Origin: a virus
Virus record (IMG/VR): IMGVR_UViG_3300044991_001372
Coordinates: 1 to 30,638 of that record
Length of the DNA: 30,638 nt
Direction: 5' to 3' (one strand)
Position 1 is the first letter of the stretch. Every line of letters starts with the position of its first letter. The position numbers and the translations under genes were made by a program. This document shows positions 2,181-28,707 of the stretch, in pieces. Under the pieces are notes generated by a model that was given only the letters and a program-made list of their open reading frames with translations, made no database searches and was not told where the DNA came from.

Positions 2181-2678
2181 ATGAAAAAAGTAATTAAACT
2201 ATCTGAATCAAAACTTACTGAATTAGTTAAACGAATCATGTCTGAACAAGATAATGAAAGATATATGTTTTTCAGTAATTTAGAACAAATTCATAGACAA
2301 ACAGGTTTGTTATTGGAATTAAATAAAAATACCGTTGAAGGTGTTTTAGATGGGGGTCATGATTGGGCTCAAGACCATTTATCAACAGCAAAAGAAAATA
2401 TTGACCAAGTTTTTGATTTCATGATGAATGAAACTAAAAATGAAGACAATATGAATGTTTTAGAACAGGACTACTCGACTGACGTTGAAAGACCCACAAG
2501 TGATAGAGAACGTCAAGCAAAATCTTTATTTGGTGACAAATATGGCGCATATATACCTAATGATGTTATTAGGTACATAAGAAAAAATCCTGCACAATTC
2601 TTTAAACGACTCTACCAAATGTATGGGGACAAAGCTTATGAATATTTAGATAAATCAAAAAATAAAGGGGAAAATTAA
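2181..2678 (+). CDS. Small protein with capsid-leader-like N-terminus
   Basis: 165 residues. The N-terminus KKVIKLSESKLTELVKRIMS followed by E-Q is nearly the same as that of the OmpA-like protein at 21267-22286 (IIRLTESEFYKIVKRVMNEQ), although the rest of the two proteins is unrelated. This looks like a transferable leader ending at a candidate gp21-type site after Glu22. The middle part (about residues 45-80) is an acidic amphipathic helix with GHDWAQDHLSTAKENIDQVF. The C-terminus is helical and basic (PAQFFKRLYQMYGDKAYEYL). It starts 4 bases after the previous stop without a Shine-Dalgarno sequence. A strong terminator overlaps its stop codon, ending this plus-strand unit. Function unknown; an internal virion protein is my inference. 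Confidence 0.6.
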   Translation: MKKVIKLSESKLTELVKRIMSEQDNERYMFFSNLEQIHRQTGLLLELNKNTVEGVLDGGHDWAQDHLSTAKENIDQVFDFMMNETKNEDNMNVLEQDYSTDVERPTSDRERQAKSLFGDKYGAYIPNDVIRYIRKNPAQFFKRLYQMYGDKAYEYLDKSKNKGEN

Positions 2679-2696
2679 ATTTCTCCTTTTTTTTTT
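2664..2696 (+). terminator. Intrinsic terminator after the 165-aa gene
   Basis: A 10-bp stem (AAAGGGGAAA pairing with TTTCTCCTTT, one G-U pair) with a 6-base loop is followed by a run of T to 2696. The stop codon of the preceding gene lies inside the hairpin. Confidence 0.75.
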
Positions 2697-2705
2697 ATAA
2701 AAATA

Positions 2706-2737
2706 TTTTTTATTCTCAAAAAATATAATTACATTTG
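2706..2737 (+). promoter_or_regulatory. Bacteroidota-type promoter for the 147-aa gene
   Basis: TACATTTG at 2730-2737 matches the Bacteroidota -7 consensus TAnnTTTG exactly. The -33 region is only a T-run (2706-2711), a weak match. The box lies 24 bases before the ATG at 2762 and just after a terminator, which supports a fresh transcript start. Confidence 0.55.
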
Positions 2738-2761
2738 TACTATAAATAAATCAAGTACATA

Positions 2762-3205
2762 ATGAAAAAAATATTTAAATTTTTTAAAAGATTGGTGATA
2801 AGACGTATTGTTAAATCAAGAAGTCAATTTGATTATCAAGACTCGGGACTATTAGGTGATGTACATATCTGCAAATCAATATGTCGTAAGTTAATAACTA
2901 GTGAGGGGTCTAAATTTTTAATTGCCCCCCTTTCATCACAAAGATATATTAAACATTCTGAATTAGGTATATTTGTTATTCTTGATGATAAAAAAATTAG
3001 TGTAATTAATCACGAATATTACTACAGTAATATTTTAATGTCTAACAGAGATTGGGAAAAATTAACTAAAATGTACGATACTAAAGTAGAACGTATTAGA
3101 CAAGAACTTAAAAATGAAATGAAGTCTCAAATCAAATATTCTTTAAAAAGTATTTTAGATAGAGTGGATAGTTCCAAAAAAATAAAAACCCCTACTGTAG
3201 AGTAA
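2762..3205 (+). CDS. Hypothetical basic protein
   Basis: 147 residues with a very basic N-terminus (KKIFKFFKRLVIRRIVKSR) that is amphipathic rather than a signal peptide and could bind nucleic acid or a membrane surface. The middle is strand-rich with YIKHSELGIFVILDDKKI, and the C-terminal third is a charged helix (TKVERIRQELKNEMKSQIKY). It has its own host-type promoter and an intrinsic terminator overlapping its end, so it is a monocistronic accessory gene, probably expressed early. No family recognised. Confidence 0.55.
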   Translation: MKKIFKFFKRLVIRRIVKSRSQFDYQDSGLLGDVHICKSICRKLITSEGSKFLIAPLSSQRYIKHSELGIFVILDDKKISVINHEYYYSNILMSNRDWEKLTKMYDTKVERIRQELKNEMKSQIKYSLKSILDRVDSSKKIKTPTVE

Positions 3206-3220
3206 GGGTTTCTTTATTTA
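3186..3220 (+). terminator. Intrinsic terminator after the 147-aa gene
   Basis: AAACCC (3186-3191) pairs with GGGTTT (3206-3211) and is followed by CTTTATTT. The hairpin overlaps the end of the coding sequence and lies between two convergent genes. Confidence 0.55.
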
Positions 3221-4207
3221 AAACATATCTTCTAATTTATCTAAATGTTTTTTAACTATATCTAAATCACTTATATCATTATAGGTCATTCCTTGTTTTT
3301 TTAACATCTGAACATGGTTATGTAATTGTGTCATCATTTGTCTAATCATCCCTGACATTGTCGGATAATTTTCAATCATCTTATCTAACGAATAAAGTTG
3401 TTCGGGTAAGTTTAAAACATCACCAATTTTCTTAACCCAATCTTTTCCATATCTATCGGCATCCATTTCCATATCCCAATAAATTTTATAGAACTCCTCA
3501 AAGTCTTCAATATCTCCCATATAAGAATCCTTCAAATCAAATTCCGACATTTGTTGTTCGTGTTTCAATTCGTGAAATAAAACATAAACAAATGACGCTA
3601 AATTAGAGAATGTCTCAGGGGAACATATTATAATCGCCTTACTTGTTCTTACACCTTTAAACCCTGTATTACAGGCATTCAACACTTTTATTACATACCC
3701 CCTATCTTGAGCATAATCTTTTATCTTACTCGCAATTAAATCAAACGCCTTATGTTTATCTTCAGGAATGTCTTTTCTAAATTTATCAATAACTCTTTCG
3801 TAATTTGAGGTGGTTTTTAGACCATTTGGGATGATATCTTCTAAAATGGTGTCTTTGGTTATCTCAAACCATTCCGTTACAATAGGGACAATTTTTTTAC
3901 CTTTACCGGGTGTTTGATTAAGCACCCCACCTTCTTCATCATTCTGTTCAGGATGTTTTTTTACGTATTTGGCAATTTTTCTTGATTCTTTCTCTATTTT
4001 AGATATTTTAGATTTTGGAGTACTCATCTCACCATCATAACTATCAAACGCTAATTCAGCACTATCATATTTTGATGTAGGTACAGTAAATGGTTGTAGT
4101 TGTTCTTTATTGAACAACCTAACACCCGGGCTCAAAGGAACTCTAACCGAACCTGACCCACCTGTACTAGTAGCCTCTTTAATTTGTCTTTTGATATTTT
4201 TATTCAT
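3218..4207 (-). CDS. HExxH zinc metalloprotease-like protein with capsid-leader N-terminus
   Basis: 329 residues from the ATG at 4207; an in-frame TTG at 4225 would add six residues but is a poorer start. FHELKHEQQ (His212, Glu213, His216) is a zincin HExxH motif, and EMDADRYG about 31 residues later offers the usual acidic third zinc ligand. The segment before the motif (SKAIIICSPETFSNLASFVY) fits the strand plus active-site helix of gluzincin-type folds. The N-terminus NIKRQIKEATSTGGSGS is strikingly like the processing region of this phage's capsid protein (FLINEATSDGSSGS). Cleavage by the prohead protease after Glu11 is therefore plausible. I infer a protease packaged in the head. It might instead act in virion assembly. 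Confidence 0.65.
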   Translation of the reverse strand: MNKNIKRQIKEATSTGGSGSVRVPLSPGVRLFNKEQLQPFTVPTSKYDSAELAFDSYDGEMSTPKSKISKIEKESRKIAKYVKKHPEQNDEEGGVLNQTPGKGKKIVPIVTEWFEITKDTILEDIIPNGLKTTSNYERVIDKFRKDIPEDKHKAFDLIASKIKDYAQDRGYVIKVLNACNTGFKGVRTSKAIIICSPETFSNLASFVYVLFHELKHEQQMSEFDLKDSYMGDIEDFEEFYKIYWDMEMDADRYGKDWVKKIGDVLNLPEQLYSLDKMIENYPTMSGMIRQMMTQLHNHVQMLKKQGMTYNDISDLDIVKKHLDKLEDMF

Positions 4208-4506: not shown

Positions 4507-4779
4507 ATGAAAAAAATATTCTTATCACTTTTACTTATTGTAAGTCTATCCTCATTTGCTCAAGATAACCTAAAACCAAAAAACATTGATAAAGGTATCA
4601 ATGTCTTGTTAGATTCGTTATCCAATGTTTATAATGTTAAAGTGGGGGCTGTCATTGTTAATGATTACCCAAACTTAAGAACAACAACAATTGTTTATGT
4701 TAAAAATGGTGAATTGGTTAAAAAAATTATTAAAACTGAAAAAAATCCACCAAAACGAGATATATTAAGTAAAAATTAA
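4507..4779 (+). CDS. Small exported protein with signal peptide
   Basis: 90 residues. The N-terminus KKIFLSLLLIVSLSSFAQ is a textbook Bacteroidota Sec signal peptide with probable signal peptidase I cleavage after SFA or FAQ. The mature part is about 70 residues, basic at its end (KIIKTEKNPPKRD), with two short strands (VGAVIVND, TTTIVYVKNGE). There is no lipoprotein Cys. A strong host-type promoter precedes it, so it is probably made early from the host polymerase and acts in the periplasm or envelope, for example in superinfection exclusion; that role is speculation. The stop overlaps the end of the convergent OmpA-like gene by 4 bases. Confidence 0.65.
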   Translation: MKKIFLSLLLIVSLSSFAQDNLKPKNIDKGINVLLDSLSNVYNVKVGAVIVNDYPNLRTTTIVYVKNGELVKKIIKTEKNPPKRDILSKN

Positions 4780-5933
4780 ATTGTTTTATTACACAGTGCT
4801 GTAACACTATATCCGGTTTTAATTGTATCAGTACCAATTGGTGAGTAAACCCTAACAATTGATTCTCCTGATGAACTATTGAAATTTATTTTAATAGGTG
4901 ACTGACCTATTGTATAAAGAACAAATTCTTTAACACCTTTATTACAAAGTTTTTGAAGGTCTTTTAAAGCATATTCCACTTCAACTCCACCTCTTTTAAA
5001 TGTTTTTGCTTTGGATGGGTCAACTAAAAGTTGTTCCAATAACTCCTGATAATTATTTGCCGTTATTTTTACAAGTTTATCACCACTAACCGACACATTA
5101 TTTCTTGAATTTATAAGTGTTAATTGATAAACGTATAATGGAACCCATTTAAAATCAACATATTTATGTGGTCTCGTCGTCACATAACCAGTGTCTTGAA
5201 TTACCTCTTCCCCCTTATTAAGAACAACTAATCTATCAGGAATAGTTCCGGTATCAAAAGTTACAACACCATTACCGTATAATTTTTCATTAGTTAATAC
5301 ATAATTAAGACTTGCGTCTCCTTGACCTGCCTCAATTTTCATACCATCCCAATCACAAATATCTTTGGAATCTTTATCTTTAACTTCCCCCGTTCCTTTA
5401 ATATCAAAATTAACAAACTGTTCTTGTTTGTATAATTTAATTTTTTCAGGGTTTTTATTATCACCTTTAGTCTTATTATAAGATGTTTTACCTAATGTAA
5501 CTTGACTAACATCTGTTGGTACTTGTATCGTTAAAACACCATTCTTAATTAAATCAGGGAATATTTCTTGAAAATATTTTTTAACAGAATTTGCTCTCGC
5601 CAACGCCAAACTTCCCTTCGTCTCATATCCCTTAGGATTTGTTACATTTGATTCTCCGGATGTTATATTAACTATAAATGTCTTACCACCGTTATCTTTA
5701 ATAAATTTGTCAATCTGAGGTTTCAACGCAATTATATCATTTTTAACAGTTGGGGAGTCAATCTGACCAAACCCAAATTTATCTCCAACACTTTGTATTG
5801 GGAATTCAGTACTAGTTAACGATTGTTTTGTGGAAACTTGCTCCAAGTTTAAATATTGTCGTTTTGTAGCACCTTCGTGAAGATTCATTATTCTATTTCT
5901 TTCCTCACTAGATATCTCAAATAAATTATTCAT
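4776..5933 (-). CDS. OmpA-like domain protein with capsid-leader N-terminus
   Basis: 385 residues. The first ~32 residues (NLFEISSEERNRIMNLHEGA then LNLEQ) share a pattern with the 83-aa protein at 28456-28707 (NLFNDISQEEKNTILEMHSG) and offer candidate prohead-protease sites at LHE|G (Glu20) and LNLE|Q. Residues ~70-150 resemble an OmpA C-terminal (peptidoglycan-binding-like) fold: a glycine/serine segment (NITSGESNVT) and an ALARANSVKKYF helix matching the family's 'LS-x-x-RA-x-x-V' helix. The C-terminal half is beta-rich and unrecognised. No signal peptide, so it is not an ordinary envelope OmpA protein. I infer a virion protein that contacts the cell wall during infection. Confidence 0.55.
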   Translation of the reverse strand: MNNLFEISSEERNRIMNLHEGATKRQYLNLEQVSTKQSLTSTEFPIQSVGDKFGFGQIDSPTVKNDIIALKPQIDKFIKDNGGKTFIVNITSGESNVTNPKGYETKGSLALARANSVKKYFQEIFPDLIKNGVLTIQVPTDVSQVTLGKTSYNKTKGDNKNPEKIKLYKQEQFVNFDIKGTGEVKDKDSKDICDWDGMKIEAGQGDASLNYVLTNEKLYGNGVVTFDTGTIPDRLVVLNKGEEVIQDTGYVTTRPHKYVDFKWVPLYVYQLTLINSRNNVSVSGDKLVKITANNYQELLEQLLVDPSKAKTFKRGGVEVEYALKDLQKLCNKGVKEFVLYTIGQSPIKINFNSSSGESIVRVYSPIGTDTIKTGYSVTALCNKTI

Positions 5934-6037: not shown

Positions 6038-7894
6038 TTATCTCAATTCTCTTAAATCGAATGTTCTAACACCATCAACTGTGATACGTCCGTAGAAACG
6101 GTTATTAACCATTTTCTTAGCGTAACGAGTCATTATACCTTTGATAGGTGTAAAGTTGAATGGGTTGTACATTGTTGGAGTTAATTGTAATGGTACATAC
6201 GGTGCGTAGATGTAACCTGTGTCTAACAATGATGTTCCTTTGTGTCCAATTAACACTTGGTTAGCTGGGAAGTAAGGGTCACGGTAAACTTGGTAACGTC
6301 CTGCTAATGTTCCTACTCTTTCAATACCCATATTATATTGGTCTTGTTCAGGAGAAGCGTTAGATACGTGGAAGTACTCTAAATCATCAAAGATAGCAGA
6401 AACCTCAGAAGATACAACAATCCAGTTTGCTCCACCTCTTAAAGTAGATTTGTGGATTTGTGCAGACAATTGGTTGATTGCTGTAATTAATGTTTGGTTC
6501 CAATCTTTTTGAGTGTAAGAAGTTACTTGAGAAATTCTTCTCCAACCATTGTAATCCCATCTCAAATTCCATGCAGCGCCTTTACGTAAATCTCTTAAGA
6601 TTTCACGGTCAATTTCTGCAGCAACTTGCTCAGATAATAAAGCTGTTAATTCAGCCTCAGCATCGATGTTGTGGAAAGCCGCAACGTCTTGAGCTAACTC
6701 AGGAGACCATTGTGCTCTTAATTTTCTTTCTGTAACAGATACAGTAACTGAATCTAAGTCGAAAGAAACCTCACCGATTTTATCTTCAAATTCTAATTCT
6801 TCGTAACGTCTGAAAACAGCGTTGAAAGCAGTTCCTGATACAGCTTCAGTAATAGTTGTACCTGTGTAACCATCTAATGATGTAGAATCACAATCAGCAC
6901 ATACTGGACAAGATAAATCAACTTCTAACCAAATACAACCATCAACGTCACATACATTTTTGAATGAACCACCGTTACCAGTAGATGCAAATGTTGTTTG
7001 AGTTGTGTTACCATATTTCACAATACCTTTACCATATATTTGAGTTACAACTCTAAATAATAAAGCTCCTGTAGAAACTGTACATGGTGAAGTAGCATCA
7101 ACTGTTAAACCATTTCCTGTATAGATAACTAAATCAGATAAGAATGATTCTGTATCCATTTCGTTACCATCAGGTCCGATTAATTTTCCAGCTCCTGTGT
7201 CAGCAAAACCACACATTTTAATGATAACTTTTCTTGTGTTACCTGAAGCGATTACAAATGCTCCGTCAGTTGTTCCTGAAATATTAGCATTAACTAAAAC
7301 TCCACCTGTCCATTTTTGGATAGTTGTTGAAGCTGTGATAGCTGACCAACGACCTTTAGAATAATCAAATAATCCTGGTGGGTCTAAACTTGGTTCGTTA
7401 CCTTCGTAGAATAAATCATAAAGATTTTTTTCATACACTGGGTTGTTAGTTCCTGAACCTGTTGTGTAACCTTCACTTGGAGAACCTGGATAATTTCCTG
7501 GAGACCCGATTGGTGCGTAGTGCTCACCTGAATACTGACCGTCAATACCGTCTTTGTATCCTTGAATTTTTGGTACAAAGTAGAATAATTTACCGATTGG
7601 TAAGTTCATAGCTTGTACAGAAACGATATCATTCGCTAATAATTTAGAGAATACTCTTCTTACGATAGGAAATACAACAGTTTCAAATGAACCTGAAGAC
7701 CCGTCAGAAGTTGCTTCGTTTATTAAGAAAGACGCTTGATTCTCATATAATTGAGCTACGTTTTCTCTTAAGTGACCTTTAAGACCTTCTAGAAATCCTA
7801 ATTTGTCCCATTTGTTGATTGTGTCTTCTTTAATAACTTTAAGGTGTTTTAACCCGATGTTACCAACTAGACCTGATTCTAATAATGCTCCCAT
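6038..7894 (-). CDS. Major capsid protein, T4 gp23-like
   Basis: 618 residues; T4 gp23 has 521. The core around residues 390-430, with QWSPELAQDVAAFHNIDAE then AELTALL and EIDREI, matches the gp23 helix region, and the C-terminus has GRYQVYRDPYF and YAPYVPLQLTP as in gp23. A gp23-like propeptide is present: ENQASFLINEA gives a predicted gp21 cleavage after Glu60, corresponding to T4 Glu65. The extra length lies mainly in an insertion (about residues 140-350) that carries seven cysteines, five of them clustered (Cys315, 320, 329, 332, 335). The gene is GC-richer than its neighbours, as expected for high expression. It is the last head gene before a terminator. Confidence 0.93.
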   Translation of the reverse strand: MGALLESGLVGNIGLKHLKVIKEDTINKWDKLGFLEGLKGHLRENVAQLYENQASFLINEATSDGSSGSFETVVFPIVRRVFSKLLANDIVSVQAMNLPIGKLFYFVPKIQGYKDGIDGQYSGEHYAPIGSPGNYPGSPSEGYTTGSGTNNPVYEKNLYDLFYEGNEPSLDPPGLFDYSKGRWSAITASTTIQKWTGGVLVNANISGTTDGAFVIASGNTRKVIIKMCGFADTGAGKLIGPDGNEMDTESFLSDLVIYTGNGLTVDATSPCTVSTGALLFRVVTQIYGKGIVKYGNTTQTTFASTGNGGSFKNVCDVDGCIWLEVDLSCPVCADCDSTSLDGYTGTTITEAVSGTAFNAVFRRYEELEFEDKIGEVSFDLDSVTVSVTERKLRAQWSPELAQDVAAFHNIDAEAELTALLSEQVAAEIDREILRDLRKGAAWNLRWDYNGWRRISQVTSYTQKDWNQTLITAINQLSAQIHKSTLRGGANWIVVSSEVSAIFDDLEYFHVSNASPEQDQYNMGIERVGTLAGRYQVYRDPYFPANQVLIGHKGTSLLDTGYIYAPYVPLQLTPTMYNPFNFTPIKGIMTRYAKKMVNNRFYGRITVDGVRTFDLRELR

Positions 7895-7926: not shown

Positions 7927-9474
7927 TTATTTTAATTTTGACATTAAGTCTTTCATTCTTAAGAACTGTGGATTCTCATATGTTTTAGATTCAATTAGAT
8001 TGATTGCTGAACCTGTTGAAGGTGCTTTAGCAATTGTTCTTTCTAATGACTCATTCATAGGTTGAGAAGAAGTTCCTGTAAGTTCATCCTTAACGACTTT
8101 GTATAAGTTTTTAGATTCTTTAATGTTTTCAACACCGTCAAATCTTCTTAAGATATTTATTTTTTCTTGTTTGGACGTTGAATGTTCTGTAAACAAACGT
8201 GTAGCGTAAGCTAAGTTTGAATTAAACACGGCAACCTCATTCAATTTATTTCTAAATACGTTAAGAGCTTTTCTGTATTCTTCATTTTTTTCTCTAAGAA
8301 CTCTTAATTCAGTTGTATTAGTATTCTCTTTAATTGCGGTATTAAAAGATGAGTGTGCTCTTGGTTTTGGCAAACCACCTTTTCTGAAATTACTTCCATT
8401 ACCTAATGTGCGAGAAGCCTCTTTTGTTTCAGCTTTTTTAGTTGTGTTAGCAACTTGCTCTTTTGTTTCTGTTTTTTTAACAGTTTTCATTTTACCTTCA
8501 AGATTTTCACCATCTTTGTAATCAAATTTTGCTTTTCCTGTACCCATAGTTACATTAGCAGATTTTTTTACAGTTTTGAAACCACCATTTTGATTAGGTT
8601 TAGCGTCATATTTAAATTTACTAGGATTTCCTAATCCGGTTCCTTTAGGTTTTACAGTCATTTTAGATTCTACTACTGTATCATCATCCATATCCATATC
8701 GTCTTGTTCTTCTAACTCTGTGTCGTCTTCATCATCAAAAGAAATTTCATAAACGATTTCTTCATCGTCCATATCTTCTTCTTCGTCAAATTCTGATTCA
8801 AAATCTTTAAAGTGTCCATCAACATCTCCAATTTTATGACCATCACGTCTTTTAAAATCGTGTTTGTTTCCACCAAACGCTTCTCCCATTTCTGAATCTT
8901 CGTCGTCATTATCAAATACTCTAGAGATGATATCTTCAATACCTTCAGAATCATCGTCTTCATCTTCATCTTCAAAGTCAAATTCGTCTTCGTCTTCGTC
9001 TTCGTCGTTAAATTGTTCAAACATTTCATCTTCGTTCTCACCAACAATCATGTATTCTTTGTTGTTCTCATTGTCTTTTAAACTGATGTTACCAGAATCA
9101 TCTTTAGTAACAACAATATTATCCTCAGGTCCCATTAATTGAAATACACGTAAGATTTCTTCATCGTCCTCTATGTCAGTAAGGTCTATGGTTTCTTCGT
9201 CATCATCCATATCTACATTATCAGTATCCATGTCGTCTTCCATATCAACATCAACATCCATGTCATCCATGTCTGTATCTGTGTCCATGTCATCCATGTC
9301 AACTTCAGTGTCAATCTCTTCTTCTTCTTGTTCTGTAAGAGATTCTTTTACTAGTTCTTTGATTTCTTGCGACATTGTCGAAGCAAGTATTCCTTTTGCA
9401 TTTTCAGCTACCGCTTCTTCCAAATTTTTCATTTGGATGATAGCTTCTTCAACTAAAGATTTTTCTTTTGCCAT
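7927..9474 (-). CDS. Prohead core scaffold protein, T4 gp22-like
   Basis: 515 residues. Residues ~50-260 are extremely acidic with Asp/Met and Glu/Asp tracts (DMDDMDTDTDMDDMD), typical of a degradable prohead core. The C-terminal ~130 residues are helical with RKALNVFRNKLNEVAVFNSN and LFTEHSTSKQEK, a pattern I associate with gp22-like scaffolds. Candidate gp21 sites such as SLTE|Q (near Glu47) fit the known fate of gp22, which is cut to peptides during maturation. It lies immediately upstream of the capsid gene, as in T4. A Lys/Gly-rich linker (residues ~270-370) separates the acidic and helical parts. Much longer than T4 gp22 (269 aa) because of the acidic region. Confidence 0.82.
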   Translation of the reverse strand: MAKEKSLVEEAIIQMKNLEEAVAENAKGILASTMSQEIKELVKESLTEQEEEEIDTEVDMDDMDTDTDMDDMDVDVDMEDDMDTDNVDMDDDEETIDLTDIEDDEEILRVFQLMGPEDNIVVTKDDSGNISLKDNENNKEYMIVGENEDEMFEQFNDEDEDEDEFDFEDEDEDDDSEGIEDIISRVFDNDDEDSEMGEAFGGNKHDFKRRDGHKIGDVDGHFKDFESEFDEEEDMDDEEIVYEISFDDEDDTELEEQDDMDMDDDTVVESKMTVKPKGTGLGNPSKFKYDAKPNQNGGFKTVKKSANVTMGTGKAKFDYKDGENLEGKMKTVKKTETKEQVANTTKKAETKEASRTLGNGSNFRKGGLPKPRAHSSFNTAIKENTNTTELRVLREKNEEYRKALNVFRNKLNEVAVFNSNLAYATRLFTEHSTSKQEKINILRRFDGVENIKESKNLYKVVKDELTGTSSQPMNESLERTIAKAPSTGSAINLIESKTYENPQFLRMKDLMSKLK

Positions 9475-9867: not shown

Positions 9868-10593
9868 TTAATGACCTAAATAATCGTTTAATTTTTTCAT
9901 TAAGTCAAGTGATTTATTACCTGAATTACCAACATGTCTTTCAACACTCATTCTTTTCTCTTCATCTAAGTTTTCATCATACAAACTTTTATCCTCTTTA
10001 TTTAAAAATAGGTATGCTCCCGGTGTTGAAGGTGAAGACACTAAGTCAAAACAAATTAATTCAAAATCATCTTGTACTTCGTTTTGTTCACCAATTTTTT
10101 TAAGTGACCCAACACCTCTTGATGATATACCTAAAGTAACTCCTTGTCTTAAGTAATTTGCCGCTAAATCTCCTTTGGTTGAACAAATACCACTTTCATG
10201 GTAACCCGGTGATGTCAATAATTTAATCTTCCCCATTAAGACATTACCTTCCCACCATACTTCGGTGATTGCGTGAGAAACTCTATCTAAATCAATAAGA
10301 GATGATTCCGGGTGATTTAACTCGGATAGGGCGGTACCCTTTTTAATCATTTTCTTATAATTTTCGGCTTCTCTTTTTAATATACGTTCAGGGTATAATC
10401 TACCATTTCTATTTGGGGTGTCATATTTTTGTAATACAGCATAAAATTCAAATGGTTTTGAGTGGTCTAACATTTCGTTAGATTCTCTAATTAAAGTTTC
10501 GTTACGATTATCCTTTGGGTTAATATACCCGGCATCATACTCAACTAATATACCTTTTCCTGATTCGTTCGGTTGTAATATTTTTAAACTCAT
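9868..10593 (-). CDS. Prohead maturation protease, T4 gp21-like
   Basis: 241 residues, close to T4 gp21 (212). The herpesvirus-protease-like fold of this family is signalled by the catalytic His in SELNHPES (His93) and the catalytic Ser in GVTLGISSRG (Ser157 or Ser158), with FELICFDLVSSPSTPGA forming the conserved strand and loop after it. YDTPNRNGRLYP at residues 58-68 is the usual N-terminal signature. Expected role: cleave scaffold, capsid and internal proteins after Glu in [I/L]-x-E sites inside the prohead, then self-degrade. It sits upstream of scaffold and capsid as in T4. Confidence 0.9.
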   Translation of the reverse strand: MSLKILQPNESGKGILVEYDAGYINPKDNRNETLIRESNEMLDHSKPFEFYAVLQKYDTPNRNGRLYPERILKREAENYKKMIKKGTALSELNHPESSLIDLDRVSHAITEVWWEGNVLMGKIKLLTSPGYHESGICSTKGDLAANYLRQGVTLGISSRGVGSLKKIGEQNEVQDDFELICFDLVSSPSTPGAYLFLNKEDKSLYDENLDEEKRMSVERHVGNSGNKSLDLMKKLNDYLGH

Positions 10594-14030: not shown

Positions 14031-14534
14031 TTATGGCATCGTCGGTGTGGGGGTTGGTGTAGGGTAATTCACGGGCGGCACCGGTATTGGAAACGGGTGA
14101 CACTCAACAATTAAATTGTCATCATTTTCTGCAGTAATTCTAATATAATCTTCAGTAGCCAAGTAACAAATTTCAACAATTGGTGACGGAGTCATTGTAG
14201 GTGTTGGCGTAGGTGTTGGAGTACTTGTTGGTGGTGGTGTAGGCGTTGGTGTTGGTGTTGGTTCCGGAGTAGGTGTTGGTGGAAGAGCCCCACTAAATAC
14301 ATCAACAGTTCTACGTTTTACAAATTCAGGTTCAAATACTTTAACACTTAAAATATCTTGACCCGGAACAACCAATCTAGAACCGGCAAATATTTTTCCT
14401 GATTTTTTTCTGTTAACAAAACCACCTGATTTACCGACACCTGTATTAAGAGGGGCATTTGCATACAAATCAGCATTTGCGTCAAACGTAATACTATTAT
14501 TTAAAGAAGAGGTTTTTCTATCGGTGGTACCCAT
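14031..14534 (-). CDS. Pro/Thr-repeat protein between terminase and portal
   Basis: 167 residues. Residues ~1-80 form a small globular region with SGKIFAGSRLVVPGQDILSV and VFEPEFVKRRTVDVFSGA. This is followed by a long PTPTPTP tract, a short hydrophobic segment (VEICYLATEDYIRI), and a second PT tract at the C-terminus. There is no signal peptide. Pro/Thr tracts are usually extended linkers in surface or tail proteins. By position it is co-expressed with head genes and may be a decoration or connector component. The repeat DNA (tggtgttggtgt-type) is prone to length changes. No family recognised. Confidence 0.55.
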   Translation of the reverse strand: MGTTDRKTSSLNNSITFDANADLYANAPLNTGVGKSGGFVNRKKSGKIFAGSRLVVPGQDILSVKVFEPEFVKRRTVDVFSGALPPTPTPEPTPTPTPTPPPTSTPTPTPTPTMTPSPIVEICYLATEDYIRITAENDDNLIVECHPFPIPVPPVNYPTPTPTPTMP

Positions 14535-16324: not shown

Positions 16325-16345
16325 ACATATAGTTGTCGGCAATTT

Positions 16346-17739: not shown

Positions 17740-18732
17740 TTATTTTGTTTTTAACCCTAACTGACTAAATTTTAAAAAACTTGGTAATTCTTTTTTTATT
17801 GCTTTAGGAGCTCCTTGTTTACTAGGGTCCGGGGCAAAAGGATGTTTTGGTTTAACACCTGGACTAACTTTTGGTTTTGCCGGTGCTGTTTTAGTATCCT
17901 CATCCATTTCACTTTTTTTCGCTTTAGGGGCTCCTTTTTTATTAGGGTCCGGTTGAAATGGGTGTTTTGGTTTAGTACCCGGACTAACTTTTGGTTTTGC
18001 CGGTGCCGTTTTAGTATCCCCTTCAATTAATTTTAAAAAATCTTGTTTAGACATTTTAGGTGTTATATGTTTTTCAACTAATCTCATGATGTGTTTTTCT
18101 ATTTCGTTTTCACCAATAGTAACGCTTGGAGATATTTTTGTCAAATTCTTTTTAAACCCTCCTGTCACCGCTGATTCTAATTTCTTATCATAATTTTTAA
18201 AACTAAAATCTTCTTTTGTTTCTTTTTTCTTTTCAGGTAATTTGTTAAATTTAGTGTCTTGAGCAAATTCATCAGCCATTCTACACCATTTATCTCTAAT
18301 TTTTTTAGGTTGAGACTTATCATTACATCTTGCAAAAAAATATTTTTGTTGACTTTTAGATTCAAATTTTTCTTGGAGTTGATTATCTGAATCATCATCC
18401 ATTCCGTCAGGTCCTTGTACTTGTACAGGGTCTTGACTTACTTCACCTTTATCTTCATCATCTTTATCTACCTCAGTATCTTCAGTGAATTCAACTTTAC
18501 CATCAGGTAACATTTTAGCCATAGTTTTACCTTGAGTTGAAACACCTTTTTTAATTTCATCTGGTGTTGCAATAACTTTAGTTGACGTAACGGTTTGAAC
18601 TTCTTTAGTTTCTTTTTTGCTTTCTAATAAACGAGTAAATAACGCATTAACTTGTTTTTCTGACAAATATTGAAGTGTTGAGGCTCTAAAACCCTCTTTA
18701 ATAAGTTTCAATTTTTTTTGATTAGTGTTCAT
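17740..18732 (-). CDS. Lys/Pro-rich repeat protein with leader-like N-terminus
   Basis: 330 residues from the ATG at 18732, overlapping the upstream gene by 11 bases. The N-terminus NTNQKKLKLIKEGFRAS offers a candidate prohead-protease site IKE|G (Glu13). The middle holds EKFESKSQQKYFFARCND followed by KIRDKWCRMADEFAQDT, similar in pattern to short 'SKaQQrFF' domains seen in phage proteins. The C-terminal ~90 residues contain two 40-residue tandem repeats (TKTAPAKPKVSPGxKPKHPF) ending LPSFLKFSQLGLKTK. Basic Pro-rich repeats suggest DNA contact or an extended linker inside the head. Function unknown. Confidence 0.55.
   Translation of the reverse strand: MNTNQKKLKLIKEGFRASTLQYLSEKQVNALFTRLLESKKETKEVQTVTSTKVIATPDEIKKGVSTQGKTMAKMLPDGKVEFTEDTEVDKDDEDKGEVSQDPVQVQGPDGMDDDSDNQLQEKFESKSQQKYFFARCNDKSQPKKIRDKWCRMADEFAQDTKFNKLPEKKKETKEDFSFKNYDKKLESAVTGGFKKNLTKISPSVTIGENEIEKHIMRLVEKHITPKMSKQDFLKLIEGDTKTAPAKPKVSPGTKPKHPFQPDPNKKGAPKAKKSEMDEDTKTAPAKPKVSPGVKPKHPFAPDPSKQGAPKAIKKELPSFLKFSQLGLKTK
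17791..18020. repeat. Two tandem 120-bp repeats within the Lys/Pro-rich gene
   Basis: Copies at about 17791-17900 and 17911-18020 align with a period of exactly 120 bases. Segments such as GGACTAACTTTTGGTTTTGC are identical, and most differences are scattered single bases. The period equals 40 codons, so copy number can vary without frame change. Confidence 0.75.
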
Positions 18733-20843: not shown

Positions 20844-21227
20844 ATGAAAAAGTTAATTACCGTCATTCTTTTTATTTTTATTTCAAATTTAACTTTCTCT
20901 CAAATAAAAAGAGCGGGGAGTTTTTATGAATTATCCGATTTATGGAAAAAAGATTCAGTGTCAGTTAAACAATTGATTACCAAATTTGATTTAAATATTA
21001 CTAAATTAGATACAGTACAATTCTTTAAACAATTTGACTTAAATAAAGATTTACACACCAACTACTCATACGAATGTTATATATCTAAATTAGATAAGAA
21101 GACTAACACTATTTCCATGAAAGAATATTTTCGTCAAGGTCTAAAACCAAAATTAAACAAATATGTTATGGTTTTTTGTTTTGATAACGATAATGGTGAA
21201 AAAATAATTAACATTAAAATATTTTAA
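20844..21227 (+). CDS. Small exported protein with signal peptide
   Basis: 127 residues. The N-terminus KKLITVILFIFISNLTFSQ is a Sec signal peptide of the kind common in Flavobacteriia, with probable cleavage at TFS|Q or after FSQ. The mature ~107 residues contain LSDLWKKDSVSVKQLITKFD and end in a strand-rich KYVMVFCFDNDNGEKIINIK, resembling small periplasmic proteins of unknown function. It is monocistronic, with its own host-type promoter and terminator between minus-strand late genes. A likely 'moron' expressed independently of the late programme. The envelope role is inferred. Confidence 0.65.
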   Translation: MKKLITVILFIFISNLTFSQIKRAGSFYELSDLWKKDSVSVKQLITKFDLNITKLDTVQFFKQFDLNKDLHTNYSYECYISKLDKKTNTISMKEYFRQGLKPKLNKYVMVFCFDNDNGEKIINIKIF

Positions 21228-21266: not shown

Positions 21267-22286
21267 TTATTTCATTATTGTTGGAAGTTTAATTATTAAT
21301 CTTCTGTTAGGTGCGGTTTCATTTTGATTTGTTACTTCCGGGAATTTTTTACCTGGTGCAAATTGGTCTGTCTCTCCAATACCTTTAGGAATAAAATTTA
21401 ATTTAATTCCCGGTAAACTAGATTTAAGAGTTGTCGCAATTTTCTGTGCTCTTCTTTTAGATAAATCCATATCATAGTCTTTTCTTTTTTGACCTGACGC
21501 AACTTTACCTTCAGGATTCCCATCTATAGATGACGAAGAAATTACCTCAACATCTCCTTCAACATTAGAATAATTTGATTTAATAGATTGTACAAAATCA
21601 TTAAATTCTTTTTGAGCTTCATTTGTTAGTTCAACACTATCAAAATTAAAAGGGCTTGTTATGTTTAATTCAAATGGTTTATCAACTGGTACTTCTTCCG
21701 GTTTATTTGAGTTAAACGATGTATTGTATTGTCCAGGGTAGAAATTTATAAGATACGACTTTCCTCTACTTCTATAATATGTTTTAGCGGAGATTATACC
21801 ATCTCTAGATTCTTGATATCTAGAGTTATTTTTAAAATAATCTCCCGGAAATTCTTGAATACTTGCTCCATAAACTATTGGAACACCAATAGGTGATTTT
21901 TTAGAAGGGGCGTCTTGAGGTACTACAGCAATAAACGCAAAATCAAGATTTTTAGTCTGAATAGGCGCGGCATTAGAATTTATAATTCCTTGCCAATTTT
22001 CTGTGGTAAGGTCAATATTAGTTCTAAATTTTTCATCTATAACTTCTTGGGTTTTAACATTATATTTAAAATCATATAAATTACCGTTTAATGGTTGTGT
22101 AGGTTTAACTTCCCCATCTTTATCTATAGATACCTCATATAATTCTCCATCAATTATTTTAACATTAATACCGGTTGCTCCAATACTATAATAAGAGTTA
22201 TCTTCAGAACTATTTTGTTCATTCATAACTCTTTTGACAATTTTATAAAATTCAGACTCAGTTAGTCTAATAATTTTTTTTCCCAT
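21267..22286 (-). CDS. OmpA-like domain protein with capsid-leader N-terminus
   Basis: 339 residues. The N-terminus KKIIRLTESEFYKIVKRVMN then E-Q is shared with the 165-aa protein at 2181-2678 and ends in a candidate gp21-type site after Glu23. Residues ~205-339 form an OmpA C-terminal-like domain: NFDSVELTNEAQKEFNDFVQ, then EVISSSSIDG (the TD-loop region), DLSKRRAQKIATTLKSSLPG and GIGETD, ending with APNRRLIIKLP. These match the family's 'N-x-x-LS-x-x-RA' and 'NRRV' motifs. There is no signal peptide. A cytoplasmically made OmpA-like domain with a capsid leader suggests a virion-carried cell-wall-binding protein. Confidence 0.68.
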   Translation of the reverse strand: MGKKIIRLTESEFYKIVKRVMNEQNSSEDNSYYSIGATGINVKIIDGELYEVSIDKDGEVKPTQPLNGNLYDFKYNVKTQEVIDEKFRTNIDLTTENWQGIINSNAAPIQTKNLDFAFIAVVPQDAPSKKSPIGVPIVYGASIQEFPGDYFKNNSRYQESRDGIISAKTYYRSRGKSYLINFYPGQYNTSFNSNKPEEVPVDKPFELNITSPFNFDSVELTNEAQKEFNDFVQSIKSNYSNVEGDVEVISSSSIDGNPEGKVASGQKRKDYDMDLSKRRAQKIATTLKSSLPGIKLNFIPKGIGETDQFAPGKKFPEVTNQNETAPNRRLIIKLPTIMK

Positions 22287-23747: not shown

Positions 23748-25652
23748 ATGACACCAAGAATTTCCATAGTAATAGTCAATTTAAATAATTTAGAACACAC
23801 TAAAAATTGTGTTAATGATTTACTACTACAAGACATACCTTTTAATTTAACTTTAATTGACCAAAATAGTTCTGAAGTGGGTACAACGGAATATTTTAAT
23901 GATTTATTTTTAAAACACTCGGAAGGTCATTTCTATGGTAAAATACATATTTTAGGGAAATATAACACAGGACACAATAAACCATTAAACCATATTTGGA
24001 ATGACTTTGTTAAAAATTCTGAAACAGAATTTATTTGTTTTTTAAATAATGACGTTAGATTATCCCCTAACTTTTTATCTTCGTCAGTTTTATTGTTTGA
24101 CATGAAACCAAATGTAGGCGTTATCAATCACACAACAAATTCAAAAGATTTTCAAACATGGTCTAAAAATTTAGATTATATTATACAAGAGACACCTTAC
24201 AGACAAGGGTGGGACTTAATCTTTAGAAGAGAATTATATTGCAACATACCTGAAGAATTAAGATTTTTTTATGGAGATGATTATTTGTTTTCAAAATTAT
24301 ATGAAAACGGATATGTTGGAGCATATATTTTAAATTCACCCGTTATTCATTATGAAAAGTCTACAACTATTGAAAAAAATGGTATGAGAGATTCATCAAT
24401 TGATTATGAACAATTTAAAAATATAGATATAAAATATAACAACTTACATTTTAACGAAGAATTTAGTAAATGGAAACCTGAATTTCATCAAATAAATGAA
24501 GATAACTATAGTAAAGAATCTTATTTAACAAGAGACCCTGATGTTGACATATGGAGAGAACATTTAAATACTTTAATATTATCCGATTATAAAGATTTAC
24601 TAACCGGTACTATCGCCGATTTTGGATGTAATCATGGTGCGGTAACAATAATTGCTGCTGAAAATATTTTAAGCCAAAAAATTATTGGAATTGATATAAA
24701 TTTAAGCGCTATTGAAGTCGCTAATAATTTACTATTAAAACATAATATTAAAAATATAGAATATATTGTTTCAAATCTTACAAATCTTGAATCAATTGAA
24801 GATAATCATTTTGATAACGCTTTTTCATTTCATACATTAGAACATATACACCCGAACGATTATGAAAGTTTTTTTAACGAAATTAAACGAACAATTAAAA
24901 ATGAGGGTCATATAATATTTTCAATACCTTACGAACATGCCTATGACGACCCAACTCATATGAACTACTTTAATGAAACATCATTATCTAATCTAATTAC
25001 TTATAATGGACTTAAAGTAATTGAATGTTATAGAGATACTAGAATTGGTTTTGACTGTTTGAATTTAGTTGCTAAAATTATTAAAAATACAAGTACTCAA
25101 CTATCAATATTAATATGTTCACTTCTTGAAAGAAATAATACATTTTTAAGTAAATTACTTGATAACATTAACCAACAAATTGAGAATAAACCTGTTGAGG
25201 TTCTTATATTAAGTGACAATGCAAATAGACCTGTTGGGACTAAAAGAAATAATTTATTAAAATTAGCTAAAGGTAAATATGTATCTTTTATTGATGACGA
25301 TGATAGAATAACTGATGATTATGTTGATTCTATTTTAAATGAAATTTATGAATGGAAATCTGATGTAATTGTATTTGATGCGGAAATCACTTTTGACGGA
25401 TATAATCCTAAATTGGTGAAATATGGTAGGGAATATGATTATTGTGAAAAACCTGAAGCATATTATCGACACCCAAATCATTTAATGGTACACAAAAAAG
25501 AAAACATTACTGAATATTTTAAAGATATAAAAACCGGAGAAGATGATGAATGGGCTTTAAGAATGTTACCAAGAATTGTAACCCAATCAAGAATTAATAA
25601 AATATTATATTATTATGACTTTAATACATCAACTAAAAAATATTTTAAATAA
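23748..25652 (+). CDS. Glycosyltransferase - methyltransferase - glycosyltransferase fusion
   Basis: 634 residues in three domains. Residues 1-~230: GT2-like GT-A fold, with ISIVIVNLNN, the NND acceptor-metal motif in FICFLNNDVRLSP (Asn100-Asp102) and FFYGDDYLFSKL. Residues ~280-430: class I SAM methyltransferase with ADFGCNHGA (motif I, 290-298), GIDINLSA and FHTLEHIHP (motif IV region, 361-369). Residues ~450-634: a second GT2-like domain with SILICSLLER, VGTKRNNLLKLAKGKYVSF and IDDDDRIT (Asp516-519). Such multidomain enzymes build or cap surface or virion glycans. The stop overlaps the start of the next gene (TAATG). The coding sequence is very AT-rich compared with the clp gene after it. 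Confidence 0.85.
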   Translation: MTPRISIVIVNLNNLEHTKNCVNDLLLQDIPFNLTLIDQNSSEVGTTEYFNDLFLKHSEGHFYGKIHILGKYNTGHNKPLNHIWNDFVKNSETEFICFLNNDVRLSPNFLSSSVLLFDMKPNVGVINHTTNSKDFQTWSKNLDYIIQETPYRQGWDLIFRRELYCNIPEELRFFYGDDYLFSKLYENGYVGAYILNSPVIHYEKSTTIEKNGMRDSSIDYEQFKNIDIKYNNLHFNEEFSKWKPEFHQINEDNYSKESYLTRDPDVDIWREHLNTLILSDYKDLLTGTIADFGCNHGAVTIIAAENILSQKIIGIDINLSAIEVANNLLLKHNIKNIEYIVSNLTNLESIEDNHFDNAFSFHTLEHIHPNDYESFFNEIKRTIKNEGHIIFSIPYEHAYDDPTHMNYFNETSLSNLITYNGLKVIECYRDTRIGFDCLNLVAKIIKNTSTQLSILICSLLERNNTFLSKLLDNINQQIENKPVEVLILSDNANRPVGTKRNNLLKLAKGKYVSFIDDDDRITDDYVDSILNEIYEWKSDVIVFDAEITFDGYNPKLVKYGREYDYCEKPEAYYRHPNHLMVHKKENITEYFKDIKTGEDDEWALRMLPRIVTQSRINKILYYYDFNTSTKKYFK

Positions 25653-26296
25653 TGGAAAGATTTGATATTATTAATCATTTAATAAGTGTTAACAACTATA
25701 AATCATTTTTAGAAATTGGGACTCAAAACCAAATAAATTTCTCAAATGTTAATATTGACCATAAAGTGTGTGTTGACCCTGACTCAGAGTCAAACCCAAC
25801 TTATTTAATGACATCCGATGAGTTTTTTAAAATCAATAAATCAAAATTTGATATTGTTTTTATTGACGGATTACATCACGCCGATTTTGTTTATAGAGAT
25901 ATTATAAATTCTTTAAAAATATTAAACAAAAATGGTTGTTTAGTAATACATGATTGTATTCCATTTAATGAATTAGCTCAAATAATACCATTAGAAAAAG
26001 CGTCGGATTTGGGAACAATTGCTTGGAATGGTGATGTTTGGAAATCCATTATTAAATTAAGAACTGAACGTAAAGATTTAAAAATAAATGTGGTTGATGC
26101 TGACCATGGCTGTGGTATCATTTATTTTACAGATACCAATAATGGCGATTATTTAGAATCATTTAACAATGGATATTATGTGTATAACGAAACTTTAGTG
26201 AGAGAAAATCTTAATATTATAACATATAATGATTTTGAAAAAAAATTTAAAAAACCCATTAAAGTTTTAACCCAAGACAATGTGTCATGTTTATAA
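25652..26296 (+). CDS. Class I SAM-dependent methyltransferase
   Basis: 214 residues. SFLEIGTQNQ (motif I), VCVDPDSES (motif II acidic), FDIVFIDGLHHADFVYRDI and LNKNGCLVIHDCIP form the typical Methyltransf_24-like order used by sugar- and peptide-modifying O-methyltransferases. It overlaps the fusion gene by one base (TAATG), so the two are coupled and probably act on the same glycan. The last four codons and the stop (V-S-C-L-stop) lie inside the 38-bp duplicated sequence. The natural C-terminus may therefore have been replaced when the cassette joined this locus. Confidence 0.82.
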   Translation: MERFDIINHLISVNNYKSFLEIGTQNQINFSNVNIDHKVCVDPDSESNPTYLMTSDEFFKINKSKFDIVFIDGLHHADFVYRDIINSLKILNKNGCLVIHDCIPFNELAQIIPLEKASDLGTIAWNGDVWKSIIKLRTERKDLKINVVDADHGCGIIYFTDTNNGDYLESFNNGYYVYNETLVRENLNIITYNDFEKKFKKPIKVLTQDNVSCL

Positions 26297-26403
26297 ATAT
26301 AATTCAAATTTGTTTTGCACATCCAATATTTTACATTACTTTTGTGGAATCATTTGAGAAAATGAATTTAATACTTATACTTAAATAAAACAATTAATTA
26401 TGA
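26280..26403. repeat. Right copy of the duplicated intergenic leader
   Basis: Full-length copy of the sequence also present at 23603-23699. It includes the clp promoter (TTG 26315-26317, TACTTTTG 26337-26344) and the clp start codon, and its left end forms the last codons of the methyltransferase gene. The two copies bracket the 2.6-kb glycosylation cassette. Confidence 0.9.
26315..26344 (+). promoter_or_regulatory. Bacteroidota-type promoter for the ClpC-like gene
   Basis: TTG at 26315-26317, a 19-base spacer, then TACTTTTG at 26337-26344, a complete host-type consensus. The leader is about 50 bases to the ATG at 26400 and contains no Shine-Dalgarno sequence. Confidence 0.72.
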
Positions 26404-28445
26404 TAGAATCTTTAGATGGTGGAAGTAATGGTGGTAATAAATCAGTGAAAACTGACTCATCAACTCCCGTATTAGACAATTTTAGTAGAGATTTAATAAA
26501 ACTTGCCGAAGAGGGTAAACTTGACCCGGTAATTGGTAGAGAAAGAGAAATCACACGAATTGCGCAAATCCTTTCACGTAGAAAGAAAAATAACCCAATC
26601 ATTATTGGAGAACCTGGTTGTGGTAAAACCGCAATCGTTGAAGGTCTTGCCATTATGATTTATAATGGGGATTGTCCAAGAAACTTAATGGACAAAAGAA
26701 TTGTATCTTTGGATATGACATCAATTGTTGCCGGAACCAAATATCGTGGACAATTTGAAGAAAGAATGAAAGTTATCATCGAAGAACTTCAAAACGAACC
26801 TAATATCATCGTATTCATTGATGAAATCCATACCATAGTTGGTGCGGGTAATTCATCAGGTTCAATGGACGCATCAAATATCTTTAAACCCGCACTTGCT
26901 CGTGGAGAAATTCAATGTGTTGGAGCAACAACATTAGATGAATACAGAAAAAACTTTGAGAAAGACGGAGCATTAGAGAGACGTTTCCAAAAGGTTGTTG
27001 TGGATTCTGCAACCAAAGAAGAAACTTTGGAAATCCTTAAAAACGTAAAAGACAAATACGAGAACTTCCATAAGGTAACTTATACGGATGAAGTATTGTC
27101 TGTATGTGTTGATTTGGCTGACCGATACATTACAGATAGAGAATTCCCGGATAAAGGTTTTGATATCATTGATGAAGTGGGAGCAAGAAGTCAAGTTGAT
27201 ATTAAGATGCCGGATTCAATTGAGAAATTGAAACAACAAGCATCTGATATCAAACAAGAAAAGATTGATGTTGTAAAACAACAACGATATGAAGAAGCTG
27301 CGAACTTACGTGATAAAGAAAAACGTATCTTAACCAAACTTGAGACTGAAAAGAAAAAGTTTGAAGAAGAACTTCTTACTCACAAAAAGGAAATCACATT
27401 AGATTTAGTTTATGAGGTTGTGTCTAACATGACCAAAATTCCGGTGACAAAATTAAATGCCGATGAAACCAAACTATTATCTGAGATGGAGGCAAACTTA
27501 TCTGATAAAGTTATCGGACAAGCTGACGCTGTTTCAAAGATTGCCAAATCAATCCGTAGAAACAGAATTGGTATTAAAGACCCAAACAAACCAATCGGGT
27601 CTTTCATCTTCTTAGGTTCAACAGGTGTTGGTAAAACATACTTGGCGAAACAACTAGCAAAACAAATGTTTGGTAGTGAAGATAATATGATTCGTGTGGA
27701 TATGTCTGAATACCAAGAGAAACACACCATCTCAAGATTAATCGGAGCACCTCCGGGATATGTTGGGTATGATGAAGGAGGACAATTAACCGAACAAGTG
27801 AAAAATAAACCTTATTCTGTAATTCTATTTGATGAGATTGAGAAAGCTAACAAAGATATCTTCTCAACACTTCTTCAAGTATTAGACGACGGTCACCTTA
27901 CCGATGGTATGGGGAGAAAGATTAACTTCAAAAATTGTGTCATTATTATGACCTCTAATGTTGGAGCTAAAAAATTACAAGATTTTGGTTCAGGAGTTGG
28001 TTTTAAAACCGGAACAAGCACTTACGCTGATGAAGAATACAAACGTGATGTTCTTAAAAAAGAACTTAAGAAATTCTTCACACCGGAATTCTTAAACAGA
28101 ATTGATGAGGTTGTTATCTTTAACACCCTAATCAAAGATGATGTTAAGAAAATTGTGAAATTGGAATTGGATAAACTATCTAAAAGATTAGTTGGTTTGA
28201 AATACGATATTACATTTGATGATACCATTTTAGACCTAATCTCTGAAGTTGGATTTGATGAGACCTACGGGGCTAGACCAATCAAAAGAGCAATCCAAGA
28301 TAAAATTGAGGATTTTGTGTCCGAAGAAATTATCAAAGGAAATATGGTGGAGGGTGTTCCATACACTCTTATATCCGTAGAGAAAGAAGTGGTAGTTAAA
28401 CCGGAAGTTGTTAAAAAGACAAGAAAGAAAAAAGAGGACATATAG
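26400..28445 (+). CDS. clpC: ClpC-type AAA+ unfoldase lacking the N-domain
   Basis: 681 residues, about 150 fewer than bacterial ClpC because the Clp N-domain is absent: the D1 linker begins near residue 25. D1: Walker A GEPGCGKT (70-77), pore loop KYRG (114-117), Walker B VFIDEIH (138-144), arginine finger ALERRF (~191-196). A short middle domain holds a UVR-like motif [18 protein letters not shown] (~293-310), the ClpC hallmark. D2: Walker A GSTGVGKT (406-413), pore loop GYVG (453-456), Walker B ILFDEIE (475-481) and a ClpP-docking type VGF loop (533-535). All catalytic elements are intact. Expected to unfold proteins and feed host ClpP. It has a host-type promoter and its own terminator. 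GC and codon choice are nearer to cellular genes than those of the preceding cassette. Confidence 0.93.
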
Positions 28446-28460
28446 TCCTCTTTTTTTATT
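28431..28460 (+). terminator. Intrinsic terminator after the ClpC-like gene
   Basis: A 9-bp perfect stem (AAAGAGGAC / GTCCTCTTT) with loop ATATA and a following T-run. The clp stop codon overlaps the loop and the start of the second arm. Likely also serves the convergent 83-aa gene. Confidence 0.82.
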
Positions 28461-28707
28461 TTTTCTTTAACCAATTTTTTCTAGTGTTTTCATAATCTAC
28501 TAACATACTCTCAAAACGAGATAATTCTTTTTTGTGATAAGTAATATGTTCTTTAATTTTTTTAATACTTTCATTTGTATCTGCTTTATCACGTCTACTA
28601 TATGTTATAGTTTTTTCCTCTTCAGATATTAAAGTTTTTTTACCCGAGTGCATTTCAAGAATAGTGTTTTTTTCTTCTTGAGAAATATCATTAAATAAAT
28701 TTTTCAT
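28456..28707 (-). CDS. Small coiled-coil protein with capsid-leader N-terminus
   Basis: 83 residues. The first ~30 (NLFNDISQEEKNTILEMHSG then KKTLISEEEK) share spacing and residues with the N-terminus of the OmpA-like protein at 4776-5933 (NLFEISSEERNRIMNLHEGA). LISE|E near residue 29 is a candidate prohead-protease site. The remaining ~50 residues form a charged helix (KKIKEHITYHKKELSRFESM) ending in a basic RKNWLKKK, a plausible DNA-binding internal head peptide. An ATATTTATA element lies 15 bases upstream of its start. Function inferred only from the leader and context. Confidence 0.58.
   Translation of the reverse strand: MKNLFNDISQEEKNTILEMHSGKKTLISEEEKTITYSRRDKADTNESIKKIKEHITYHKKELSRFESMLVDYENTRKNWLKKK

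Follow-up and report, generated by a model that had tools for sequence, protein, structure and literature searches.

In bacteriophage T4, the internal proteins IPI, IPII and IPIII and the propeptide of Alt carry a capsid-targeting sequence (CTS), a short N-terminal tag that occurs on unrelated proteins and ends in an L/I-X-E motif (excerpts of PMC9026906 and PMC5694885; those of the former also treat the CTS mechanism and the L/I-X-E specificity). In the T4 record, IPII and IPIII share the start MKTYQEFIAE/A (a slash denotes a cut or candidate cut), and the similar start of IPI has its first [ILV]xE at residue 19. In IPIII, Asp instead of Glu at the P1 position inhibits processing, whereas targeting is unaffected (excerpts of PMC9026906). 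A second precedent is the giant phage SPN3US, in which N-terminal propeptides of 20 and 24 residues are removed from gp45 and gp225 by the prohead protease, as detected by mass spectrometry (excerpts of PMC10052503). Here we describe short N-terminal leaders in a DNA stretch of 30,638 bases (subsequently designated the window), which is the entire virus record IMGVR_UViG_3300044991_001372 and probably a fragment. According to PHROGs profile matches the window contains a T4-type head module, i.e. like T4 it encodes a T4-type capsid protein together with a gp21-family protease, and several of its otherwise unrelated proteins begin with one of a few leader types. Because most of these leaders terminate in the cleavage motif of the head protease that the phage itself encodes, they probably mark proteins for packing inside the virus head.

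The earlier note on this DNA had pointed to two pairs of shared N-termini, and both are indeed present. Type A heads a 165-aa protein (MKKVIKLSESKLTELVKRIMSE/Q; 2181-2678, plus strand) and an OmpA-like protein (MGKKIIRLTESEFYKIVKRVMNE/Q; 21267-22286, minus strand). One leader retrieved the other at E=0.0022 among 2,638 open reading frames (ORFs), and the bodies gave no mutual match at E<=10. Type B heads a second, weakly OmpA-like protein (MNNLFEISSEERNRIMNLHEGATKRQYLNLE/Q; 4776-5933, minus strand) and an 83-aa protein (MKNLFNDISQEEKNTILEMHSGKKTLISE/E; 28456-28707, minus strand); mutual retrieval occurred at E=0.011 and 0.17 in the same ORF set, again with no mutual match of the bodies. Among the bodies of the tagged proteins in the window, blastp found nothing below E=0.5. 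The type C leader opens a zincin-like protein (3218-4207), in which IKE/ATSTGGSGS mirrors the predicted processing site INE/ATSDGSSGS of the capsid protein (residues 58-69), as had been proposed. The leaders, their proteins and the head genes are located as follows.

2181..2246, plus strand: type A leader, residues 1-22, candidate cut MSE/Q
2181..2678, plus strand: 165-aa tagged protein, body starting YMFFSNLEQ...
3218..4207, minus strand: tagged HExxH (zincin-like) protein, HExxH at residue 212
3863..4207, minus strand: type C N-terminal module of ~115 aa, common to proteins with different C-termini, predicted to be unstructured
4175..4207, minus strand: type C leader, residues 1-11, candidate cut IKE/A
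4776..5933, minus strand: tagged protein with weak OmpA-like match (PF00691, E=0.0015, below cut-off)
5841..5933, minus strand: type B leader, residues 1-31, ending NLE/Q, which is not phi-x-E (phi, hydrophobic residue)
6038-7894: major head protein (phrog_138, E=4.2e-67)
7715..7894, minus strand: predicted capsid protein propeptide, residues 1-60, INE/A site
9331..9474, minus strand: putative scaffold N-terminus, residues 1-48 of 7927-9474, LVKESL-x-E at 41-48
9868..10593, minus strand: gp21-type head maturation protease (phrog_207, E=3.5e-43; tblastn matches to annotated prohead proteases)
21267..22286, minus strand: tagged OmpA-like protein
22218..22286, minus strand: type A leader, residues 1-23, candidate cut MNE/Q
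28456..28707, minus strand: 83-aa tagged protein
28621..28707, minus strand: type B leader, residues 1-29, candidate cut ISE/E

Relatives were collected in two sets. Recruitment via the terminase gave 80 terminase relatives, 24 of them in long records, and the small set (1,971 ORFs) comprises 17 of these 24 records, Flavobacterium phage immuto and the window. Outside it are G005, G008, G009, G010, G013, G018 and G023, several of which are near-duplicates by leader-profile matches. The large set (4,849 ORFs), to which loci from leader scans and terminase loci were added, is biased to tagged genes by construction, 77 and 78 of its loci having been recruited by the leader scans themselves. In IMG/VR, these scans confirmed at least 415 and at least 312 of 599 stretches for types A and B, respectively.

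Profile searches, which the earlier note had called for, revealed a large tagged repertoire in relatives with a sharp end at phi-x-E. The A and B profiles were each matched in 22 of the 24 long terminase-recruited records (limit E<=10 per record), the worst best matches among the matching records being 6.2e-6 (A) and 3.9e-4 (B); G013 matched neither. In the small set, iterated profiles yielded 42 A matches at E<0.01, 39 beginning by residue 45, and 33 B matches, all beginning by residue 45, while reversed proteins gave none. In the large set, 226 A matches were obtained at E<1e-3 (start at residue 1-3 in 202, at 4-60 in 14 and later in 10) along with 155 B matches (137, 18 and 0, respectively), and reversed proteins produced no A or B match even at E<0.1. 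The B result did not change in kind when the nine-row seed was reduced by one row: matches were N-terminal in 33/33 (small set) and 142/142 (large set), with none in reversed proteins. No match was found when two leader peptides were compared with the phage collection by tblastn, perhaps owing to the shortness of the queries. Nor was a clear A or B leader (best E-values 0.022 and 0.12) present with 23 distant terminase relatives from assemblies of bacteria and archaea, among them metagenome-assembled genomes of Paludibacteraceae and Flavobacteria, with many other phyla represented too, and a first terminase scan of genomes confirmed 0 of 21 stretches. Leader sharing exceeds chance.

Altogether, 370 tagged proteins (216 type A, 154 type B) were sorted into 187 body families, 154 of them singletons; as joining relied on blastp at 1e-4 only, remote relationships surely exist among the 187. 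When 145 representatives were aligned jointly, they agreed in the leader only (mean column identity 4%), i.e. a short N-terminal segment is common to otherwise unrelated proteins. Across 136 families type A is sharply defined: E9 and V/I at position 16 are present in all, L7 in 134, T8 in 130 and L12 in 131, residue 20 is I/V/L/M in 135 (I or L in 118), and E22 occurs in 131. The information content is 3.40 bits at position 22, drops to 1.15 at 23 and 0.40 at 24, and does not exceed 0.21 from 25 onward; the commonest P1' residue is Gln (46/136 families). In type B the [ILVM]xE site lies at a variable place, with its Glu between residues 22 and 40, and was present in 135 of 154 leaders within the stretch searched. 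Among type B representatives, residues 20-43 contain [ILVM]xE in 46/56, as compared to 14/55, 15/54, 10/49 and 4/42 in later windows and a shuffled mean of 20.1 of 56. For [IL]xE[QAS] the corresponding numbers are 28/56, then 3/55, 1/54, 0/49 and 0/42, and a shuffled mean of 2.3. Gln is again the commonest P1' residue (70/135 proteins versus a background of 4%). Type C ends in IxE/A. The rule that leaders terminate in [I/L/M]-x-E, put forward in the earlier note, thus applies to most relatives, the gp21 motif L/I-X-E standing at the segment end in types A, B and C, and breaks down in one of its own examples, the leader at 4776, which reads N-L-E/Q. An amphipathic pattern is visible in the leaders by eye.

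When similar N-termini were sought among proteins with dissimilar bodies, additional classes emerged and were then profiled. Class E (MKYLLGYKRGVVISE/Q) comprises 27 proteins in 10 body families, class F 7 proteins in 7 body families, and class G 11 proteins in 10 body families, 7 of the 11 carrying it behind another start. Up to 13 proteins tagged by A, B, E, F or G were counted on one contig. Types A, B, E, F and G were all absent from the isolate immuto, which has a class of its own: four proteins share a FDLKKFLVENKLT-like start ending near phi-x-E, with E-values of about 1e-15 to 1e-14 for the four members versus 0.33 for the next protein (NC_055915: 1803-2318, 103806-104354, 117631-118632 and 118632-118931; loci L159, L160 and L162). 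One suggested class did not withstand analysis. Type D (IKE/G, 17740-18732) matched 59 proteins, the best ten over essentially the whole length, and the site [ILVM]xE/[GASQ] was found in only 15/59; conservation is a matter of whole-protein homology here, which is not the case for types A, B and C. Separately, 14031-14534 and a 14-member cluster have the N-terminus RKKSGxIxxGSRLxVxGQGIYxVK in common, on proteins of very different length and with no phi-x-E end; this start resembles a structural domain more than it does a tag.

The same body can stand behind different leaders. In the window, L123 and L098, leader A heads the OmpA-like body of 21267-22286; the L184 copy has leader B instead, and in L141 the body follows an internal A leader. 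The junction Glu and Gln are invariant in all five sequences. The family of the 165-aa protein uses four different starts (MKKVIKLSESKLTELVKRIMSE, MRITESQLNKLVKKIVNE, MKNLNTLIKKVLRE and MNNLDLKIKKILKE). The type C module, matched in 42 proteins (near-duplicates included), precedes either a zincin-like domain, a Cys-rich stretch, or an internal A leader followed by the OmpA-like body (L141:17881-19326). Four proteins, L141:17881-19326 (G011:57881-59326), L280:6089-6919, G015:30639-31460 and G016:31166-31987, have such an internal type A leader: at residue 133 it separates the type C module from a second body, resembling a polyprotein with two phi-x-E sites. A zincin-like body without the type C module was also seen, with the other short start MKELIRRILKE (L217:1101-1865). 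Several type C proteins end in leader-like C-terminal tails, e.g. TVRLTESDLYRLINKVLKIK and ESLRNIIKKVLKEE (L315:9128-9823, G004:37080-37781, L165:1434-2153, L167:10593-11312, L270:12131-12643). The core pattern was counted 184 times near N-termini (1.171 per 1,000 positions), 85 times inside proteins (0.104) and 7 times near C-termini (0.154); because the last count is small, C-terminal tags are a possible lead only.

The leaders are further linked to the phage head. Gene 7927-9474, which has no PHROG match, is the putative scaffold gene from its position and acidity, and its segment resembles positions 10-23 of type A. Among 55 relatives of the scaffold and 49 of the capsid protein, gathered by their N-terminal 60/100 residues, the scaffold keeps residues 41-46 (LVKESL) and E48 invariant, with residue 47 (P2) varying and Q49 in 53/55, and the capsid protein keeps I58 in 48 and E60 and A61 in all 49, resembling the IxE/AT of type C. 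At these predicted sites, capsid protein and putative scaffold share the cut motif of the leaders. A gp21-family prohead protease is encoded by the window and was detected in 28 of 35 long tagged records, which had been picked from the leader scans. In none of the other seven records was a full head module detected: six are without a capsid match, and in one of the seven, G045, the terminase lies 3 kb from the contig start. Tagged genes are concentrated near the capsid gene, 36/71 lying within 10 kb of it on 15 contigs, as compared to 17.3 expected and a maximum of 29 in 5,000 draws; this count leaves aside G001 and G003 (near-duplicates) and G006 (no capsid gene there). G021 has a second cluster of ten tagged genes in 17.4 kb.

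Most tagged proteins, which range from 56 to 610 aa, match no family. Pfam searches with the 145 representatives yielded few matches, namely PG_binding_1 (three), CarboxypepD_reg and Big_1 (two each) and single matches to e.g. OmpA, SLT, NlpC/P60 and PG_binding_3 (17 families in all). Several endolysin families were matched in PHROGs, and PADLOC gave marginal matches only (best 3.1e-4). In the window, the OmpA assignment of 21267-22286 is borderline (E=5.9e-6; 27.0 bits versus a cut-off of 27.2, and 29.4 bits, above cut-off, in a second run). The protein 4776-5933 matched no Pfam family at E<=0.01 in a first search, and its G004 orthologue matched PF00691 at E=2.2e-6, below cut-off. For 3218-4207 there was no Pfam match, and its structure model found no PDB match at E<=0.001. 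Both structure models are weak, with a mean predicted local distance difference test score (pLDDT) of 58.9 (OmpA-like) and 52.3 (zincin-like). In the former (21267-22286), residues 1-28 have a pLDDT under 50 with a helix at 10-21, and the body begins at about residue 30; in the latter (3218-4207), pLDDT is under 50 over residues 1-133 and better over about 134-320.

Taken together, the data argue that the leaders are removable N-terminal capsid-targeting propeptides working like the T4 internal-protein tags, to which we assign a probability of roughly 0.77, since this interpretation best explains position, boundary, motif, swaps and gene company. The proposal of the earlier note, capsid-targeting leaders cut by a gp21-like protease, is accordingly strengthened by the repertoire, the phi-x-E end, the motif in scaffold and capsid protein, the swap and the co-occurrence of the protease, whereas packaging into the virion and cleavage are inferred, and among the literature matches listed no virion proteome of this clade appeared. 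Several further observations speak against the interpretation. Within the stretch searched, 19 of 154 B leaders have no site, some having one just before that stretch; ten of these 19, like the window leader at 4776, end in L-[NT]-L-E/Q, which keeps Glu-Gln and breaks phi-x-E. The best scaffold segment ranks only about 125th among 1,046,893 windows scored with the type A matrix, and the conservation around the scaffold and capsid sites is partly due to selection in gathering the relatives. No protease was detected in G037, whose capsid match is weak and partial. The A, B and immuto profiles found no N-terminal match in nine T4 head proteins (best E=0.064, internal). Single PHROGs matches of tagged bodies to baseplate, holin, integrase and tail proteins do not favour the head, and the peptidoglycan-active bodies would equally fit lysis or tail proteins. 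Indeed, the largely peptidoglycan-binding or hydrolytic nature of the recognisable bodies, together with the endolysin matches, could mean that the leaders stay uncleaved and serve as helices that dock onto a different phage structure (tail, baseplate or lysis complex), phi-x-E being merely the end of the helix. We consider this unlikely in view of the abrupt end at phi-x-E, the variable place of this motif in type B, its presence in capsid protein and scaffold as well, and the proximity (10 kb or less) of about half of the tagged genes to the capsid gene.

Codon usage bears on whether the shared starts are the translation of a DNA-level element, i.e. a regulatory site or recombination seed. 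At 18/22 leader positions, and markedly at K2 and R6, codons are less diverse than background, which counts against protein-level targeting, and the tagged genes cluster like exchangeable cassettes, as in G021. However, several synonymous codons are used at most leader positions (e.g. four each at L7, T8 and R18), diversity is at or above background at the other 4/22, and some leader-like segments are internal or close to a C-terminus. Because conserved leader residues are encoded by several synonymous codons, selection on the protein is the better, though not the sole, reading of codon use, and a DNA element is very improbable. Hardly more credible is ordinary descent, in which paralogues would have kept the N-terminus while their bodies diverged beyond recognition: OmpA-like and PG-binding bodies do recur and some families are remotely related under the blastp joining, but one body occurs under different leaders, and the proteins differ widely in length and Pfam domains.

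If the leaders are capsid-targeting propeptides, the following pathway can be envisaged. Its starting point is what the sequences show: leaders 11-31 residues long, belonging to a few sequence classes, stand at the front of many unrelated proteins and in most cases terminate in phi-x-E. Such a leader would bind the scaffold core of the assembling prohead, type A perhaps copying the scaffold's own LVKxx-phi-x-E/Q segment. The gp21-type protease would then cut after Glu and free the body inside the head, and would be expected to act likewise on the conserved phi-x-E sites of capsid protein and scaffold. The bodies would be packed alongside the DNA and, upon infection, ejected into the host, where some may act on the cell envelope, as suggested by the recognisable ones (OmpA-like, PG_binding_1, lytic transglycosylase, NlpC/P60 and zincin-like). 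In a broader and more speculative version, to which we give somewhat less than an even chance, uncultivated T4-like and jumbo phages, probably infecting Bacteroidota, would possess a modular address code with about eight classes (the six types A, B, C, E, F and G, the immuto type and a tentative ITESQ type), at least some of them interchangeable. The tags, N-terminal, internal and possibly C-terminal, would obey one head-protease motif, with type A copying the scaffold, and would serve to load and inject fast-changing envelope-active and unknown effectors.

Gene 14555-16342 of the window aligns to the annotated terminase of immuto with 29% identity, and immuto is among the top matches of the window capsid protein. 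By eye, no obvious Shine-Dalgarno sequence precedes the gene starts of the window, and two small genes adjoining tagged genes (4507-4779 and 20844-21227) have signal-peptide-like starts ending in SFAQ/TFSQ; 59 such starts form one cluster in the search for similar N-termini. The absence of obvious Shine-Dalgarno sequences, the SFAQ/TFSQ signal peptides and the immuto capsid match suggest a Bacteroidota host. The region that separates the head module from the 83-aa tagged gene contains, from a reading of the translation, a glycosyltransferase/methyltransferase-like gene pair and a Clp-type ATPase-like gene (23748-26296 and 26400-28445).

Phage proteins injected with the DNA are hard to predict because they have no common fold. 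Should the tags hold up, one short profile would list the candidates for injection in many uncultivated phages, most of them proteins that match no family; anti-defence and take-over factors would become directly testable, and the loading of phage heads with proteins would gain new tags and a new protease. No prior description of tags in this clade was found among the literature matches listed, a search whose scope excluded subscription journals and preprints, and four leader motif strings did not occur in the paper texts searched. In encapsulins, a short terminal tag likewise directs unrelated cargo into an HK97-fold shell, but these cargo-loading peptides are usually C-terminal and not cleaved, and neither scaffold nor maturation protease is known to be involved. 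We liken the leaders to the T4 CTS as something that works alike rather than as a homologue, because no sequence homology to the T4 CTS was found. The parallel extends, by eye, to the scaffold, gp22 having LIAE/A where IPII and IPIII have FIAE/A; to the distance between tag and site, which may vary in IPI as it does in type B; and to Alt, which is processed at both ends (excerpts of PMC9026906), recalling the C-terminal leader-like tails. Unlike in T4, where tags have about 10-19 residues and the commonest P1' residue is Ala, the tags described here span 11-31 residues, prefer Gln at P1', fall into several unrelated sequence classes and head a larger repertoire. SPN3US differs in its A-X-E motif and in its other N-terminal propeptides of 111-254 residues, and the excerpts of its description mention no tag common to many unrelated proteins (PMC10052503). 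The principle is thus the known one of the T4 CTS; what appears new is how many tag classes there are, the repertoire they head, and its occurrence in an uncultivated clade.

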